A stretch of 64,000 nt of DNA. Source: Flavobacterium branchiarum. Its GTDB lineage: Bacteria; Bacteroidota; Bacteroidia; Flavobacteriales; Flavobacteriaceae. The notes beneath the pieces are model-generated. The model saw only the letters and a list, made by a program, of their open reading frames with translations. It was not told the origin of the DNA and did not search any database. The stretch covers positions 2,294,001 to 2,358,000 of the forward strand of contig NZ_JAUFQQ010000003.1 of assembly GCF_030409845.1 (NCBI RefSeq), read 5' to 3'. The translations under genes and the position numbers were made by a program. Shown here one piece after another: positions 10,426 through 18,497 of the stretch (within the stretch, counting starts at the first letter, position 1; every line of letters begins with the position of its first letter).

Positions 10426-11169
10426 TTAAAGCCTTACGTAAGCTGCTAATTGCACTATATTATTAACAGTATTATTATTTTTACCAAGCACAAATTGATT
10501 CATATACCCTGCTTCGATATCAAATTTAGGGCTCAATCTCCACCCTATTGCTAAGTAAGCTCTGTTTTGGTCAAAGAACTTGCCGTTGGGAGCATTTTCT
10601 ACATTAACAAATACTTCGTTCTGTAAGGCTACAAAAGCACCATTGGTAAAAGTATTAGTGGCTGAAAGTGGGAATATTGAACGAGTGAAATAACGTAATC
10701 GTTGTGCAAAATCGTAACTATCGGTCACAAGTTCGTTTTGATCAATTGTAGGTTGCCCCATAAAACGCTGTTCTAACCTAAAACGATGCTGTAAAGAAAG
10801 AGGACGATTAACTGCTGTAAATTGTTGGTTAAAGATAAACTGTTCCCATATTCTATGCTCTGGAACCCATCCATCAATATCCATAACAGTTCTATTATTC
10901 CCAATATAGGCATAACCAATCGTGGCGATCATATTGCTTTTGATATTATAATTCAATCCTGCTCTGGCGATAAAAGATTGAGTATCTTCTAATTTGTCGG
11001 TGCTTCTCACCTGTCCATCAAAATGGATACTAAATTTATTATCCAACTTATAAGTAAAGAAAACGGCATTCCAACCACTAAAAGTATTTTGCGTTTGTGC
11101 GCTTAAAGTTGTACTAAACAAAAGAACTATAACACTGAATAAAGTAAAAAAAGGTAATCGTAAAAGCAT
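10426..11169 (-). CDS. DUF2490 outer-membrane beta-barrel protein
   Basis: 247 residues with a signal peptide ending LSAQ (about residue 25). The mature part is an alternating-strand beta-barrel pattern matching DUF2490: FSGWNAVFFTYKLDNKFSIHFDGQ near the start, RAGLNYNI, EHRIWEQF, LQHRFRLEQRF, and a C-terminal strand ending VRL, an outer-membrane sorting signature. Function of the family is unknown; related proteins are small porin-like barrels. It stands alone and diverges from the AraC gene at 11440. Confidence 0.85.
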   Translation of the reverse strand: MLLRLPFFTLFSVIVLLFSTTLSAQTQNTFSGWNAVFFTYKLDNKFSIHFDGQVRSTDKLEDTQSFIARAGLNYNIKSNMIATIGYAYIGNNRTVMDIDGWVPEHRIWEQFIFNQQFTAVNRPLSLQHRFRLEQRFMGQPTIDQNELVTDSYDFAQRLRYFTRSIFPLSATNTFTNGAFVALQNEVFVNVENAPNGKFFDQNRAYLAIGWRLSPKFDIEAGYMNQFVLGKNNNTVNNIVQLAAYVRL

Positions 11170-11439: not shown

Positions 11440-12366
11440 ATGATTGAAATTCTTAACCTTGACAAGAAACATTATCCAACCGGATTTAGTGCTCACCAAA
11501 TTAAATCTCAAGATAACACGCTTTTAAATAAGTCATTCAGAAGTTCCTTTTACCAAATGTTTTGGGTAAGATCGGGGGAGCTTACGCTTAATTTGGATAA
11601 TAATTTAATCCATCTGAATAAATTCGAATGCAGTTTCGTTGGTATCAACCAAGTGTTTAGCGTAGAAACCTCATCCAGTTTTGAAGTACTACTCGTTTGC
11701 TTTGAAGAAGATTTCTTTTGTCGCACTGATATTGACAGACAGTTTTTAGAATCATGCATATTTTTTAATTCCGATCAAGCCGTAAAATATAAATTACACA
11801 ACTCTTTAAAAAAAGCCATTGTTCAGTATCATCAGTCCCTACTCCACTTATGTAGACAGCCTTACAATGAATTAATGTATCACTTTTCACACAACACTGT
11901 AGAGCGACTTCTCCTTTTTACTCAAAAAGGATTATTAGATAAGTCTTATAGTCCTATTGAAACATTTAAAAAATCTGAAGTAAATCTTGCTAGGAATTTC
12001 CGAAAATTGGTAAAAGAAAATCTCAAGGAAATGAGGTTTGTAAAGGATTATGCCGATAAACTGAATATATCAATTAAAACTTTAAATGAAGTATGTAATA
12101 GTATTTATGGTAAGTCACCTAAAAAAATAATTATCGAAGAAATTGTCATCGAAAGCAAGCGTTTACTTCGATACACTGACTTAAGCATTAAAGAAGTTGC
12201 ATTTGAACTTCTCTTTATAGATCCTAGCAATTTTATTCGTTTTTTTACAAATGCCACAGGAATGTCTCCCAAACAATACAGAACAGAATTTGAAGAAAAA
12301 AGAGTGTACATTCCAAAACCAAAATCAACAACAAACACAACAACAAACACAACAACTAAAGAGTAA
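11440..12366 (+). CDS. AraC-family regulator beside the fibre operon
   Basis: 308 residues. Residues ~1-130 look like a cupin-type sensing domain (FWVRSGELTLNLDNNL). Residues ~190-285 form the two helix-turn-helix motifs of AraC proteins, ending with the hallmark SNFIRFFTNATGMSPKQYR. The tail STTNTTTNTTTKE is encoded by a short imperfect ACAACAAAC repeat. It lies 245 bases upstream of, and in the same orientation as, the fibre operon and is the obvious candidate to control it. The link is from position only. Confidence 0.88.
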   Translation: MIEILNLDKKHYPTGFSAHQIKSQDNTLLNKSFRSSFYQMFWVRSGELTLNLDNNLIHLNKFECSFVGINQVFSVETSSSFEVLLVCFEEDFFCRTDIDRQFLESCIFFNSDQAVKYKLHNSLKKAIVQYHQSLLHLCRQPYNELMYHFSHNTVERLLLFTQKGLLDKSYSPIETFKKSEVNLARNFRKLVKENLKEMRFVKDYADKLNISIKTLNEVCNSIYGKSPKKIIIEEIVIESKRLLRYTDLSIKEVAFELLFIDPSNFIRFFTNATGMSPKQYRTEFEEKRVYIPKPKSTTNTTTNTTTKE

Positions 12367-12611: not shown

Positions 12612-13157
12612 ATGAAAAAATTTCTAATAGCTGCATCATTTGCAATTATTGCAATGTCAGCAAATTCTATTTTTGCACAAACTACAAACCTTAATGTAAA
12701 TGTTGCAAACGTTTATTCACTTGAGGTAACTAATCCAACGGTTACTATCGGAATGAATACTGCTGCAAACTTTACAGGAGGTAATACAACCGGTTCTTTA
12801 CCGAACCACGTTAAAGTTAGTGCTACAAATGGTTATAAAGTAACAGTTCAGGCTGCTACCGAGCTAACATCACCTGGAAACGATGTTATTCCAGTATCAA
12901 CCGTAGTTGTATCAACTACTCCTGGAACTTACTCTGGTGCATCTGGTAGTATTGATGCAGGATCAAACGCAACTTTTCCTGGAAATGCTCAAGCACTTAG
13001 CGTAACGACTCCAGTTGAGATTATTTCCTCAACTACAGGTGATATTCGTGGATTTAACATGCAGTATACAATTCCTCCAGTGAGTGCTCCTGTATATTTA
13101 AATAAGCCTGAAGGTATGTATAGCACTTTGCTTACTTATACTATTGTAGCAAACTAA
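12612..13157 (+). CDS. Pilin-like fibre subunit 1 (probably major)
   Basis: 181 residues with a signal peptide ending IFAQ (about residue 23). The mature protein begins with alternating polar and hydrophobic residues (TTNLNVNVANVYSLEV), the pattern of a donor strand, and ends with GMYSTLLTYTIVAN. The latter motif, G-x-YST followed by an alternating strand, recurs at the end of the next subunit and of the protein at 14673. It is rich in Thr, Ser and Val with no cysteine. It is the first gene after the promoter and is followed by a hairpin that could reduce transcription of later genes, which would make it the most abundant product. Fibre subunit status is inferred from these features and the chaperone gene. 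Confidence 0.7.
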   Translation: MKKFLIAASFAIIAMSANSIFAQTTNLNVNVANVYSLEVTNPTVTIGMNTAANFTGGNTTGSLPNHVKVSATNGYKVTVQAATELTSPGNDVIPVSTVVVSTTPGTYSGASGSIDAGSNATFPGNAQALSVTTPVEIISSTTGDIRGFNMQYTIPPVSAPVYLNKPEGMYSTLLTYTIVAN

Positions 13158-13180
13158 AATAGTAAAAACTTTTATAAATG

Positions 13181-13208
13181 GCACTAATCTGATATTTTGG
13201 GTTAGTGC
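13181..13208 (+). terminator. Hairpin between the two subunit genes
   Basis: GCACTAA (13181-13187) pairs with TTAGTGC (13202-13208) around a 14-base loop, followed by TGTTTTATAT. It is a weak terminator or RNA-stabilising stem lying inside the operon, as is common after major pilin genes. Confidence 0.55.
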
Positions 13209-13287
13209 TGTTTTATATATTCTATTTTCTTAATTAAAATTTCTTCTGGAGAAGCATGTTGTTTAACCATTAGAAGCATAATTACAA

Positions 13288-13845
13288 TTGAAAACTTTAA
13301 AATACATATTATTTTATATTCTGTTATTGCTTAGTCCTATAGCATCTATAGCTCAAAGTATAGGTTCTGCACAAACGCAAGTAAACATTACTATTGCGCA
13401 AGTACAAAGCATACAGATAAGCCAGCCAACTGTTAGTATCAGTATGGCTAAGCCTTCGCATTTTCTTTTTGGAAATGACTCAGGACAACAACCCAACCAT
13501 ATTAAGGTAAGTTCTAGTACTCCTTATGAAATAACTGTAAAAACAAATTCTGAATATTTTTCTCATAACGGAAACAATAGTTCATTACCTGTAAATACAA
13601 TTGCTGTAAAAACCAGCATAGGTAGTCTTGCTAATTCTAATGCTACTCCTCCAGCAGGACTTCAGGTAGCGCCAGAAGTTATGCTTTCTACATCACCTAC
13701 AACAATTATAAAATCTCCAGCAGGCGAATGGGGTCGCGGCTTTCATGTAAACTATTCAATACCTGAGACAAAATCACCAAGTTACCTCAACCGTAAAGCA
13801 GGTACATATAGTACTACAATTATGTATTCGTTAATTCCTCAATAA
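13288..13845 (+). CDS. Pilin-like fibre subunit 2
   Basis: 185 residues beginning at a TTG codon, the only start that keeps the signal peptide (cleavage near IASIAQS). It is a paralogue of the first subunit: the mature N-terminus is again an alternating strand (TQVNITIAQVQSIQIS), both have QPNHIKVSS or LPNHVKVSA in the centre, and both end with A/E-G-TYST or MYST and an alternating strand. The weaker start codon and the upstream hairpin suggest lower expression, so a minor, adaptor or terminating subunit is likely. It is followed directly by the chaperone gene. Confidence 0.7.
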   Translation: MKTLKYILFYILLLLSPIASIAQSIGSAQTQVNITIAQVQSIQISQPTVSISMAKPSHFLFGNDSGQQPNHIKVSSSTPYEITVKTNSEYFSHNGNNSSLPVNTIAVKTSIGSLANSNATPPAGLQVAPEVMLSTSPTTIIKSPAGEWGRGFHVNYSIPETKSPSYLNRKAGTYSTTIMYSLIPQ

Positions 13846-13878
13846 TTGGTATATTTACTATTACTAAACATAAAAAAA

Positions 13879-14676
13879 ATGAGAAATTTCATATTGATTC
13901 TAATTGGATTACTCATCGTAAACCAAGCACAAGCTCAGGCTGGTATTTCTGTATCGCCAGGGCGTTTGTATTATAAATTAAATGCAGGAGCATCAGGTTC
14001 ACAATATATCAACTTAACCAACCCAACTGATAAAGAACTTGAAGTAGGTGTTTCATTTAATGATTGGGAATATGAAGCCTCTGGCAATAATAAAATTGCT
14101 GAAGCAAATACACTTCCAACTTCATGTACCGACTGGATTCAAATATTACCTAGCTCCTATTTTGTTGTTAAACCTGGTGAAACCAAACAAGTAGAAGTAC
14201 TTTTTAAAGTTCCTAACAATGCAGATACAACTATACCCGTTCATACAGGAATGATTTTCTTTACCCAACTAAACCCAGGCACGGCCATTGACCAAAATGG
14301 AGCTGCCATACAGGTAACTGTAAGAATGGGAGTTAAAGTATATCATAGTTTTATCAAAGAAAATAAAGTTCTTGTTGATTTTGTAGATTTTACAACCTAT
14401 GCAGACGATAATAAAAATAAAATTATTGAACTAAAAATAGAAAACCAAGGTGATCTATGGGCAGATGGAAAAGTAAAATGGGAACTTTTTAATACTAGTA
14501 CTGGTAAAAAAAGCACTTTAAAAGATTCCGAATTCTACACGCTACCTAAAGATATTAGAGTATTAAAGCAACAATTACCAACCGATCTTGCCAAGGGAAA
14601 TTATACCGTTTCTGCAATTTTAACTTTTGGAGAAAAAGATATTATAAAAATTGCAGAATTAGAATTTAGCCTATGA
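13879..14676 (+). CDS. PapD-like periplasmic chaperone
   Basis: 265 residues from the ATG at 13879, which places a signal peptide ending QAQA directly at the start; the reading frame continues upstream to a TTG but that would disrupt the signal. The mature part is two immunoglobulin-like domains: ISVSPGRLYYKLNAGASGSQYINLTNPTDKELEVGV is the classic first-domain opening of PapD/fimbrial-chaperone folds, and FVVKPGETKQVEVLFKVP matches the loop before the G1 strand. In chaperone-usher systems this protein holds subunits by donating its G1 strand. Its stop codon overlaps the ATG of the next gene (ATGA), so the two are translationally coupled. Confidence 0.8.
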   Translation: MRNFILILIGLLIVNQAQAQAGISVSPGRLYYKLNAGASGSQYINLTNPTDKELEVGVSFNDWEYEASGNNKIAEANTLPTSCTDWIQILPSSYFVVKPGETKQVEVLFKVPNNADTTIPVHTGMIFFTQLNPGTAIDQNGAAIQVTVRMGVKVYHSFIKENKVLVDFVDFTTYADDNKNKIIELKIENQGDLWADGKVKWELFNTSTGKKSTLKDSEFYTLPKDIRVLKQQLPTDLAKGNYTVSAILTFGEKDIIKIAELEFSL

Positions 14677-15692
14677 AACAAATAATAACAATCATCTGTT
14701 TTTTCTTTTTTACACATTATACTACCCACGCGCAATATATACTAGGTGGCTATAATGGCGGGCAACCTGTATTTTCTACCTATGCAGAAATGGTATCAGG
14801 AAAAACACTAAACAATCAAATTTCTATTCCTTTGCAATATTATGGCCCCCATATAAATGTAAACGAATGGAAACTTACTGCAAGGCTAACACAAGATTTT
14901 ACTAGTGATGCTAATAATGCCTATACTGTAGGAGCACAATACAGTTCTCTGAAATTTAATAGTCAAGAAAATAGCGGCTCAGAAAATGGAATGCTTGTAA
15001 ATGTTCCTACTCAAGTATTTCAGTTAAGTAAATACAATGAAGTTACACTTATTCATAGCAATGTAAATTTAAATGGTGCCGTAAATAGAATCTTTCGTTA
15101 TAATTTAAGTGTTCAGGGAGGTAATCATTTATTGGTAACTCCAAACGGAATGTATAACTCATCCTATGAATTCAAACTTTATAAGATCTCAAATGGAATA
15201 GAACAATTGATTGGTATTTATACTTCCCCGATCGGAAGTGCCAGATTTCAGTTGTCTTTTGGTGGAAATTTCGGAAGTCAATCTGTTATGCTCCAAAACG
15301 GTGCACAACAATTTAATATAAATTATAGCACTGCAACAGATTATGCAACAGAAAAATCGGTTACAATAGCAAATGCTTTACGTGTTAACACCTATAACTC
15401 GCAACTCGCTGTAGAGGCATCAGGAGATTTTATATCACCAGCATCATCCCAAACAATACCACTTTCTATTTTAAAATTGCAGTTAAGCACTAATCAATCC
15501 TACAATGGGTTACAGATTATCTCTCCCATAACTCTAGCACCAACAACACAGCCAATAGCTATTAAATCCAGTAATACACCTCAGGATATAACCTATAATG
15601 TAAAGTTTTTTATACCCGCAAATAGTCCTGGTCTTAATGTGAGTCCTGGAACCTATAGCACCCGTGTCTACTTTGTAATAATGCCAAATTAA
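14673..15692 (+). CDS. Two-domain tip-like fibre subunit
   Basis: 339 residues with a signal peptide ending THAQ (about residue 20). Residues ~21-200 are an unrecognised beta-rich domain beginning YILGGYNGGQPVFSTYAE. Residues ~230-339 resemble the pilin-like subunits: an alternating segment, an F/Y-xS-P-S-x-x-IPLS block comparable to the subunits, and the shared ending PGTYSTRVYFVIMPN. A pilin domain fused to a larger N-terminal domain is the layout of tip adhesins such as FimH, where the extra domain binds the receptor. It overlaps the chaperone gene by 4 bases and precedes the barrel gene by 12. The adhesin role is inferred. Confidence 0.65.
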   Translation: MKQIITIICFFFFTHYTTHAQYILGGYNGGQPVFSTYAEMVSGKTLNNQISIPLQYYGPHINVNEWKLTARLTQDFTSDANNAYTVGAQYSSLKFNSQENSGSENGMLVNVPTQVFQLSKYNEVTLIHSNVNLNGAVNRIFRYNLSVQGGNHLLVTPNGMYNSSYEFKLYKISNGIEQLIGIYTSPIGSARFQLSFGGNFGSQSVMLQNGAQQFNINYSTATDYATEKSVTIANALRVNTYNSQLAVEASGDFISPASSQTIPLSILKLQLSTNQSYNGLQIISPITLAPTTQPIAIKSSNTPQDITYNVKFFIPANSPGLNVSPGTYSTRVYFVIMPN

Positions 15693-15704
15693 TACTCTTT
15701 GTTC

Positions 15705-18497
15705 ATGTTTTGTAAATATTATAAAATACTTTTTTTTCTTACTGTCTTGGGATCAAGCATAAACACTTGGGCTCAAAACAATAGCTTTAGTATAGAATTT
15801 ACAAACCAAAAAATTGAAACAAATAGCAAAGGAGTTATTGATGCTTACGTAAAAATTGTAAACACTAGCTCCCATTCTATAGAAGGATTATTTGATACGC
15901 ATAGTAGTCATGAGGATCTTTATCTTTCGTTGCGAAAACCAAAAAACATTACTCTCCCTGCCCATGATAGCATCTTTATTCCGATAAAAGCTATTGTGAG
16001 TGCAACTGCTAAAGCAGGTAATCGAAGCACTATTGAAGCAGTTTTTACAATTGTTGGAACACAGGAAACCAAAAGCGTGTTTTTACCTGTTTTTATAAGT
16101 GAAAGAAAATTAGTTAAAGTGATGCTACTCGAAACAAATTTGATTTATGAAAGAGTTGGCGATAGTCTTTCTATACCAATACGAGTTTCAAACGAAGGAA
16201 ATACTGCTCAAAAAATTACTATTCTAGCTCGTTATCCAGATTTTATAACGCGAAATGCAATAGAAAATACAGATATCAATGTTCCAGCTTTTACAGATAC
16301 TATATTGGTACTAAAAAAGTTAGTTAACAAAACAGTATTAAATCAAGAAGACATTACTATTAACATTACCGCTCTATATAACAACGGAGATATTATTAAT
16401 AATGGGACTGTGCGAGCCAGCTCTATTAGGCAAGACCGAAGATATGCTTCTCCATACAACCCCGATTACAACCTTTCGTTTAACCAAACCAATCAGGTTA
16501 CAGCGAGCGTACAACACAACAGCGACAATACAAACGCTTATTATATATATGCTAATGCACAAGCAGAAATTAACCAAGGAGTCCTGCAAGCCAATGTAGA
16601 TGTTAACTGGTGGGAAAACTCAGATCAGGTTTTTTTGAGAAATACTTGGCTTAGCTATAAAGAAAAAAGCTATGGGGCAACAATTGGAAATATATCTAAG
16701 TTTTTTGACCTCAATCTAATTGGTAGAGGTGCTGAAGGATTTTACAAACCCAATGAAAAAAACACCATCGAAGCGGGTGCAATTGATAAAACGTATAATT
16801 TAATTGATGATTCTAGCTTGTCGTTTGGCAAAGCTGCATGGGCAATGTTTACACACAATAACGGGTGGATGCAAAAAAATGGATATGAAAACACCATTAT
16901 CTATGATGATGACACTTACTCTGGAACAAAAAACTACTTGGCATCATCGCGCTTTTCATTGTATACATCCGAAAACTTTAATCTTAGAGCTGGTGGCGCA
17001 ATTAGCAATCTTGCATCTCAATTTGAAACTGACAATAAAATTGGTGGTGCTGGAGAAATTCAGTTTAATGGGAAGTTGAAAAATTTGTTCTATAGCAGTT
17101 CCAACTACCTCAGTACGGGTTACTTTTCAGGAATGAGAAAAGGAGTTATTAACCTTAATGAAAGAGTAAATCTTCCGATGGGTAAATTCAATTTATGGGG
17201 CGTGTACAATTACCTGTCTGCTAAACCAGAATCATATGCTAATCAGTTTACATCAACACATTTTTCGACAGCACGTTATGATATAGGCGCATCAAGACGA
17301 TTTTCATCACTAATTGTTTCACTATCTCCTTATTATTACACAGAAAACCGTAAAGAGCAACTCTTTAGCTCCACAAATCCAAAGGAATATTCTATGAAAG
17401 CTGCGCGAATGACTTTGGGATTAACCTATTACAATACGCCTACCAATCAAAATGTGTCTTTGTCTATAGAAGGAGGACAATTTACTGCCAATACAATGGC
17501 AAAAAATGAATTTCATTATAAAGCGAACTTTATTTACAGTTGGAAAATACTTAATCTTTTAGCTTTTTATCAATACAATAATTTTTACCTAGGAGAAATC
17601 ATTGCCAACTCACAATTGGGCATAGAAAAAACATATACCAACTTAACCATCTCTCCTACTTTACAACAAAAATTTCTTAATGATAAACTAACTGTTAATC
17701 TCGGAATGGTATATTCTAAAAACAGCATAATTAGTGAATCTTTTCAGATTAACGGACGTCTTGACTATGACATAACAAAGGATTTTAGCATTTTTGCTTA
17801 CAATTATTACAGTGATTTTTCGACTAGTATAAATACATTGAACACAATACAAATAGGATTGACCAAACGTTTTAATCCAATAAAAATTGATAAAACGAAA
17901 AGCGAACTAGAAGTTTATGTTTACTATGAAACAGGAGACAAAGACAAAACAACTTCTAAAAATTCACCAGCAACAAATCAGCTTGTAATCATTGATGGAA
18001 AGGCTTTTAGAACAGACAGCAAAGGTATTCTGAAGTACAGATCGTTACCCGCAGGCACCTATACTATAAAACCTGTCAATACCAATGAATGGTATGCTAA
18101 TGCTGTGAAAACAACTATAAATACAGATACAAAAATTGCGATTGGCTTGAATAAAACTGCTTCAATAAAAGGATCTCTGTCTTATATTGCTACTGATAAA
18201 AGTTTTGATATAACCAAGAAAAAGGGAGGGCTACCAATAATTGCAATTGATGACAATGGTAGTGTTTTTACAACCAAAACGGATGAAAATGGAAACTTTG
18301 TATTGTATGTACCAAAAGGATTATATACTGTGAGCCTTGAAAAAGGAAGTATATCTGATTATGTAGAAGTAGAAAACAACAATATGTTGATAAATGCAAC
18401 CCCAGAAACTATAAAGGAAGTTAATTTTACTTTAACCATAAAAGAAAAGCGTGTGGAAACAAGAAAATTCAGTTCAAATGGTTTCAAAAAACAATAA
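15705..18497 (+). CDS. Usher-like outer-membrane barrel protein
   Basis: About 930 residues from the ATG at 15705; a TTG lies 6 bases upstream. After a signal peptide (ending NTWAQ) come one or two Ig-like beta domains (~27-235) resembling the N-terminal parts of assembly proteins. Then follows a long stretch of alternating strands rich in aromatic residues and Tyr/Asn (~250-715), the pattern of a large transmembrane beta-barrel. Two small C-terminal beta domains (~730-920) follow, each with a transthyretin/carboxypeptidase-regulatory look (TDSKGILKYRSLPAGTYTIKP and TDENGNFVLYVPKGLYTVSL). Size and order (periplasmic N-domain, barrel, two C-terminal domains) mirror ushers such as FimD, but I see no clear usher family match. 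It is the last gene of the operon. Confidence 0.65.
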   Translation: MFCKYYKILFFLTVLGSSINTWAQNNSFSIEFTNQKIETNSKGVIDAYVKIVNTSSHSIEGLFDTHSSHEDLYLSLRKPKNITLPAHDSIFIPIKAIVSATAKAGNRSTIEAVFTIVGTQETKSVFLPVFISERKLVKVMLLETNLIYERVGDSLSIPIRVSNEGNTAQKITILARYPDFITRNAIENTDINVPAFTDTILVLKKLVNKTVLNQEDITINITALYNNGDIINNGTVRASSIRQDRRYASPYNPDYNLSFNQTNQVTASVQHNSDNTNAYYIYANAQAEINQGVLQANVDVNWWENSDQVFLRNTWLSYKEKSYGATIGNISKFFDLNLIGRGAEGFYKPNEKNTIEAGAIDKTYNLIDDSSLSFGKAAWAMFTHNNGWMQKNGYENTIIYDDDTYSGTKNYLASSRFSLYTSENFNLRAGGAISNLASQFETDNKIGGAGEIQFNGKLKNLFYSSSNYLSTGYFSGMRKGVINLNERVNLPMGKFNLWGVYNYLSAKPESYANQFTSTHFSTARYDIGASRRFSSLIVSLSPYYYTENRKEQLFSSTNPKEYSMKAARMTLGLTYYNTPTNQNVSLSIEGGQFTANTMAKNEFHYKANFIYSWKILNLLAFYQYNNFYLGEIIANSQLGIEKTYTNLTISPTLQQKFLNDKLTVNLGMVYSKNSIISESFQINGRLDYDITKDFSIFAYNYYSDFSTSINTLNTIQIGLTKRFNPIKIDKTKSELEVYVYYETGDKDKTTSKNSPATNQLVIIDGKAFRTDSKGILKYRSLPAGTYTIKPVNTNEWYANAVKTTINTDTKIAIGLNKTASIKGSLSYIATDKSFDITKKKGGLPIIAIDDNGSVFTTKTDENGNFVLYVPKGLYTVSLEKGSISDYVEVENNNMLINATPETIKEVNFTLTIKEKRVETRKFSSNGFKKQ

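Follow-up and report, generated by a model that had tools for sequence, protein, structure and literature searches.

The 64,000-nucleotide stretch of the Flavobacterium branchiarum genome analysed here (the window) carries five tightly packed open frames on one strand, at 12612–18497, which raise the question of whether a member of the Bacteroidota builds surface fibres by a chaperone-usher route and, if so, what serves as the usher. A previous interpretation made without database searches (the sequence-only reading) had described two paralogous pilins, a PapD-like chaperone, a two-domain subunit and a barrel protein with immunoglobulin (Ig)-like N-terminal and small C-terminal beta domains; it had noted no obvious usher signature in the barrel and had proposed a chaperone-usher composition with a distinct or deeply diverged assembly platform. 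We confirm this five-gene set at the same place, including the paralogy of the pilins (PilA and PilB share 35–39% identity), and the domain layout of the barrel, the missing usher signature and the proposed composition are all supported by the results below. All five proteins stay below the Pfam cut-offs and lack an NCBIfam match. Subunit, chaperone and, taking the barrel as such, usher genes lie together, and we posit that the cluster very probably codes for surface fibres of the chaperone-usher type and for an usher that has diverged deeply. This reading is supported because the chaperone matches FimC-type chaperones, one of two groups of barrel relatives (group I) matches classical ushers, and four sub-cut-off matches to the Pfam family PF00577 (Usher) lie in barrel genes that adjoin this kind of chaperone.

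Chaperone relationships

The chaperone profile C_flavo matched FimC, YadV, SfmC and YraI of E. coli K-12 at E=5.2e-6 over 207 columns (four nulls, 0.08–0.61; reversed profile, 0.34), and a combined chaperone family profile reached 1.5e-7 against the same proteins and 2.6e-7 against EcpB/EcpE. C_flavo also matched C_f24, the chaperone profile from the group I side, at E=2.8e-19, indicating one chaperone family. More specifically, the window protein is a two-domain PapD-like chaperone, itself below every Pfam cut-off, with candidate anchor residues R30 (R or K in 13 of 15 members) and K154 (K in 10 of 15), which we take to be the equivalents of PapD R8 and K112.

The same family is homologous to the two-domain WxLIP proteins: searched against the PDB, its 36-member profile matched EfmWxLIP1 at E=2.3e-14 over both domains, and the window chaperone has a match to the Pfam WxLIP PGBD family below cut-off. 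One relative (L093:5316-6110) passes the PapD_N cut-off, a family matched below cut-off in 2/15 close members, and another (L084:7394-8194) passes that of WxLIP_HBD. Since FimC-type, EfmWxLIP1, PapD_N and WxLIP_HBD matches all occur within it, the chaperone family appears to sit between the PapD chaperones and WxLIP. These two relatives connect the WxLIP host-binding and PapD_N families, which are separate in Pfam.

Barrel proteins and their relationship to ushers

PF00577 is absent from the host genome and from the matches of the window proteins, and its cut-off was passed in none of 395 Bacteroidota genomes. Four sub-cut-off matches at E<=0.001 (1.9e-5 to 7.4e-4; genomes G282, G321, G175 and G235) all lie inside a long frame adjoining a chaperone gene, while five proteobacterial-plasmid barrel proteins scanned gave no PF00577 match. 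A further relative (L072) matched CooC_C, the C-terminal domain of CS1-type ushers, below cut-off at 1.3e-5.

Relatives of the barrel form two groups, the plug-bearing group I and group II, to which the window protein belongs. The group I profile comprised 30 sequences (21 loci of one Bacteroidota family, L079, seven proteobacterial plasmid loci and L083), and group II the window family of 12 together with nine relatives. When eight group I sequences were compared with classical ushers (FimD, HtrE, SfmD, YraJ), the match was 9.5e-8 over 689 columns, the best of 31 nulls reaching 0.076; thirty sequences gave 3.2e-10 (2.1e-8 for the barrel part alone). Group I barrels are thus homologous to FimD-type ushers. 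Nulls for the hhalign comparisons were FhuA, BamA, LptD, OmpF, BtuB, LpoA and GntP of K-12, unrelated window proteins and reversed profiles. Group II is coherent at the level of the barrel (2.1e-11). Its match to group I over the whole length (1.2e-24) comes largely from the C-terminal domains; the barrel part gave 5.1e-4, the segment before the plug 8.7e-5 and the segment after it 1.2e-4, with 17 reversed or unrelated controls all at 0.0058 or above. As judged from these alignments, the window barrel may be a diverged usher.

Examined for a FimD-like N-terminal domain, the window barrel is predicted to form an Ig/fibronectin type III (FnIII)-like sandwich at residues 28–134, the part that follows being modelled without confidence. 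A hidden Markov model of the plug-like domain of group I found none in the barrel part of 12/12 window-family members, although this model also misses FimD. The C-terminal domains match CarboxypepD_reg (E=9e-6) and SpaA (E=0.013), both below cut-off, and at E<=0.1 these families are matched in 13 and 11 of 16 relatives, respectively; in several relatives the first C-terminal domain holds a D-x-N-x-N-type loop, degenerate in the window protein (17904–18158). A home-made strand count gave 24 strands for the window barrel and 19–28 over 12 relatives, with calibrators off by up to 3 and a counter whose totals ran too high before its penalty had been adjusted on known barrels. The value of 24 is weak and decides nothing, because shuffled versions of the barrel give 16–23 strands (scores 20.9–30.1 vs 36.1 for the real sequence) and the family profile gives 15 for the window family (22 for classical ushers).

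Conservation and distribution

The order regulator, pilins, chaperone, two-domain subunit and barrel is kept in 7/7 named near relatives (F. frigoritolerans, F. shii, F. plurextorum, F. sp. YO12, F. cerinum, F. hydatis and F. oncorhynchi), of which F. frigoritolerans is the nearest found, with 88% identity in the barrel protein, and F. cerinum (L010) holds one extra pilin. The 5.0-Mb host genome contains a diverged second set (L005:9068-14328) with 36% identity in the chaperone, 29% in the two-domain subunit and 26% in the barrel. One pilin gene was seen in this second set and no regulator gene directly upstream of it; weak matches on contig C4 contain stops and were dropped. Chaperone and barrel genes stay paired down to 20–25% barrel identity. 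The conserved order, the paralogous set and this pairing together argue that the cluster is more than a chance arrangement. At two loci (L039:3798-8893 and L040:2631-7140) the barrel gene lies on the strand opposite to the chaperone gene, and the linkage therefore survives rearrangement.

At E<=1e-5 the chaperone profile matched 87 of 395 Bacteroidota genomes (35/170 genera), and at E<=1e-20 17/199 Flavobacterium genomes. The barrel profile matched 58/395, a figure that overstates its spread, since the match spans most of the length in only 12 genomes (18 loci) and the remaining rows match a C-terminal part. Twenty-five chaperone loci were inspected, 13 chosen knowing both matches and 12 by the chaperone alone. 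An adjoining frame matches the barrel profile at E<=0.003 in 18 of them, and at L093–L095 a frame of 893–919 residues in the place of the barrel, at E 0.02–0.5 to that profile, belongs to group I by profile comparison (2.8e-15). The barrel is present in 8/12 loci chosen by the chaperone alone, L093–L095 included. Further Bacteroidota loci have the barrel beside the chaperone in 16/16 cases (ten chosen by the chaperone alone), and chaperone genes picked blind to their neighbours have a barrel gene alongside in 18/22.

Chaperone-barrel sets also occur outside the phylum, on plasmids of Polaromonas (two), Sphingopyxis, Novosphingobium (two) and Pseudoalteromonas (two); a tblastn search with the window barrel found no plasmid. 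Where annotated, their pilin genes are called DUF4402 or hypothetical protein, their chaperone genes molecular chaperone, fimbria/pilus periplasmic chaperone (the NCBI name in the Polaromonas JS666 set) or hypothetical, and their barrel genes carboxypeptidase regulatory-like, SdrD B-like or hypothetical protein. The JS666 set (L131:885-8488) is flanked on both sides by IS6 family transposase genes, suggesting mobility. Three Deinococcus plasmids gave weaker chaperone matches (E 1e-7 to 7e-4), as did a single Deferribacter plasmid for the C-terminal part of the barrel (E 3e-4). The sequence-only reading had called the chaperone-usher pathway classically proteobacterial, a description that needs widening given a pathway of this kind in 87 of the 395 Bacteroidota genomes and the weaker plasmid matches in Deinococcus and Deferribacter.

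Pilins and the two-domain subunit

Searched against the PDB, a 25-member pilin profile matched chains of TLP-2 and TLP-1 (9ikk and 9ikj among the entries) at E=1e-8 over the N-terminal strand and first part; each entry holds 16 chains, which suggests a filament. DUF4402 was matched at E<=0.01 in 8/48 pilin relatives (best, 4e-23). The literature searched yielded no paper on DUF4402 and, separately, none on TLP-1/TLP-2.

The shared ending described earlier, G-x-YST followed by an alternating strand, holds in a looser form: an aromatic residue, S/T and an alternating strand end 20/25 close pilins and 10/11 two-domain subunits vs 59/948 other open frames, falling to 20/48 once distant pilins are included. 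The literal motif (G-x-Y/F-S/T/N) is found in only 12/25 close pilins, 26/48 of the wider pilins and 3/11 two-domain subunits vs 81/948. Both patterns are our own, the rows are related, and the background of 948 includes spurious six-frame open reading frames. An N-terminal alternation score, likewise our own, could not tell pilins and the two-domain subunit apart. This subunit, which shares the pilin ending and whose relatives cross-match pilins, is probably located at the fibre tip.

Contrary evidence and alternative explanations

A number of results weigh against a chaperone-usher system with a deeply diverged usher. Group II showed no significant match to classical ushers (barrel 0.058, segments 0.4 and 0.023, whole 0.054). 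With Flavobacterium rows left out and the C-terminal domains cut, group II matched group I at 0.1 and 0.26, and the same cut comparison with more rows gave 0.012 and 8e-4. An earlier, stronger link between the window barrel and plug-bearing barrels is not counted, as its profile mixed both groups and the link weakened after splitting. EcpC is matched in the C-terminal domain only, PDB searches with barrel profiles gave no usher among 12 and 20 sequences at E<=10, the second of them listing chitoporin at 5.5e-4, and AlphaFold2 modelled the barrel from eight near sequences with a predicted local distance difference test score (pLDDT) of 33. Four of the 25 inspected loci have no adjoining barrel (L071, at a contig end, L086, L087 and L090).

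The pilins and the chaperone add to this list. TLP chains are no longer listed for the 48-member pilin profile, and the match to FimA-type pilins (0.0075; best null 0.015) covers the C-terminal strand only. AlphaFold2 gave a weak model of PilA (17 sequences; pLDDT 52.7), for which Foldseek/VIA returned generic sandwiches, plastocyanins in the top VIA rows and no TLP among the matches listed. C_flavo alone matched EcpB/EcpE at 0.046. In the PDB, WxLIP stands far ahead of PapD-type proteins for the chaperone profiles (FaeE 1.3 and 0.43, YadV 0.029), and 25-residue stretches of two designed Ig proteins also scored about 1e-5 with the 36-member profile.

Part of this evidence would fit a filament like TLP-1/TLP-2 whose barrel is an unrelated outer-membrane protein, with group II as a platform of its own that shares only the C-terminal domains with group I: much of the similarity between the groups does come from those domains, and group II by itself gives no significant match to the classical ushers. 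However, group I is matched by two distinct stretches of the barrel, in the right order and each at E~1e-4, and the chaperone family, gene position and similar size are common to both groups. We regard this alternative as unlikely.

The affinity of the chaperone to EfmWxLIP1 and the WxLIP_HBD match of L084 suit a WxL-like surface complex, in which the chaperone-like protein, a WxLIP relative, would remain attached to its partner as a structural tether, with the barrel serving as an anchor and not as an usher that assembles fibres; in the WxLIP paper, an AlphaFold prediction likewise inserts a WxLIP strand into the WxL sandwich, which it completes (PMC10599100). Against it, scans for a WxL-domain partner listed no WxL domain in the window subunits (E<=1), in 25 pilins (E<=0.1) or in 48 pilins (E<=0.01), the pilins match filament chains, L093 matches PapD_N, and group I barrels match ushers, leaving this explanation quite improbable. 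Type V pili and type IX secretion are the usual Bacteroidota routes, and their being common in the phylum is what a type V (lipoprotein) pilus or type IX cargo has in its favour here, but the pattern test found no lipobox, and so no type V lipoprotein precursor, in any of the five proteins, nor was there a FimA/Mfa or Por_Secre_tail match at E<=1, which makes either exceedingly doubtful.

Gene layout and regulation

The two-domain subunit gene overlaps the chaperone gene by 4 bases, and for both the chaperone and the barrel the ATG is likelier than the start of the open frame (Table 1). The AraC-type protein is probably the local regulator of the cluster; AraC-like matches are also present at loci L030–L035. 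The terminator-like site after pilA is one of 5 in the region vs 2.9 in shuffles, and the pilA–pilB intergenic fold (-30.7 kcal/mol, z=-3.4) was equalled in 1/200 shuffles; the hairpin could raise pilA mRNA above the downstream mRNA. Outside the set, a DUF2490 protein is encoded at 10426–11169 (E=3.6e-48), and a 247-residue frame occupies the place matching its gene in 6/7 near relatives.

Table 1. Features of the cluster and of its barrel protein, as positions in the 64-kb window; all genes are on the + strand.
Feature	Position	Strand	Remarks
AraC-type regulator	11440..12366	+	HTH_18 E=6.8e-20; directly upstream of the cluster
pilA, probable major pilin	12612..13157	+	Signal peptide read by eye; alternating N-terminal strand; C-terminal YST and alternating strand
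Strong hairpin, U-rich tail, in the pilA–pilB gap	13176..13213	+	17-pair terminator-like site
pilB, second pilin, pilA paralogue	13288..13845	+	TTG start
Two-domain PapD-like periplasmic chaperone	13879..14676	+	265 residues from ATG 13879; open frame from 13846
Two-domain subunit (N-terminal domain and C-terminal pilin-like domain), candidate tip adhesin	14673..15692	+	Putative role
Usher-position outer-membrane barrel protein, group II	15705..18497	+	930 residues from ATG 15705; open frame from 15699
Barrel protein residues 28–134, Ig/FnIII-like N-terminal domain	15780..16100	+	Predicted, fair to good confidence
Barrel protein residues ~140–245, putative second Ig-like domain	16116..16433	+	Alignment of relatives and hhalign alignment; model unconfident there
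Barrel protein residues ~250–735, probable beta-barrel region	16446..17903	+	Home-made strand count, weak
Barrel protein residues ~736–915, two small C-terminal beta domains	17904..18443	+	CarboxypepD_reg/SpaA matches below cut-off

Proposed assembly pathway

For the chaperone-usher system that we favour, the signal peptides, read by eye, suggest that Sec would take the subunits over the inner membrane. By homology, the two-domain chaperone would then cap each subunit with a lent strand and deliver it to the outer-membrane barrel, the presumed equivalent of the usher, where the N-terminal strand of the next subunit would displace that of the chaperone. PilA and PilB would form the shaft, with the two-domain subunit probably at the tip. 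The barrel itself would be a group II usher with an Ig-like start and without a recognised plug, features that may entail another mode of recruitment and gating. The AraC-type protein would probably control the cluster, and the hairpin after pilA could provide an excess of the major pilin.

Comparison with known systems and implications

In E. coli K-12, the classical and alternative chaperone-usher pili (Fim and Ecp) have the same gene set as the cluster, namely pilins, chaperone, two-domain subunit and a barrel of about 900 residues with C-terminal beta domains; the chaperone is homologous and, in group I, so are the barrels to FimD-type ushers. Unlike Fim and Ecp, the window system has its own pilin family, and its barrel begins with an Ig-like domain, lacks a recognised plug and is not matched by Pfam Usher. 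The proteobacterial plasmid sets, which combine a DUF4402 pilin, a ‘molecular chaperone’ and a ‘carboxypeptidase regulatory-like’ barrel, share the chaperone family (C_flavo vs C_prot2, 1.6e-14) and a like chaperone-barrel order with the window, but their group I barrels carry a plug-like domain, and their alignment with the classical usher profile begins early in that profile (column 56 to 63). DUF4402 pilins are presumably linked to the archaic chaperone-usher class. The overall logic is also that of the archaic (sigma) pili Csu and CupE. According to PMC4654587, archaic systems occur in Proteobacteria, Cyanobacteria and Deinococcus-Thermus. Among the papers listed in a literature search on chaperone-usher systems in Bacteroidota and Flavobacterium, PMC3796261 alone contained the term chaperone-usher. 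The Gram-positive WxLIP proteins (DUF916-DUF3324), homologous to the chaperone over both domains and also predicted to lend a strand, differ in having a transmembrane helix and a WxL-domain partner and no outer membrane or barrel; a term search of the main text describing them found neither ‘chaperone’ nor ‘pilus’ (PMC10599100).

More broadly, we tentatively suggest, as a possibility somewhat short of even, that these genes represent a widespread, unannotated chaperone-usher class in Bacteroidota and beyond, that the window branch, with Ig-like N-terminal domains and no recognisable plug, recruits and gates in another way, and that the chaperone family ties PapD to WxLIP, in which case chaperones that lend a strand would predate chaperone-usher pili and extend beyond them. 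If so, the Bacteroidota would gain a pilus route beside type V pili, many outer-membrane proteins now called ‘hypothetical’ or ‘carboxypeptidase regulatory-like’ would be explained, and nature would have provided a test of which parts of an usher (N-domain, plug) are indispensable. The link between the chaperone and WxLIP would join surface assembly in one- and two-membrane bacteria.

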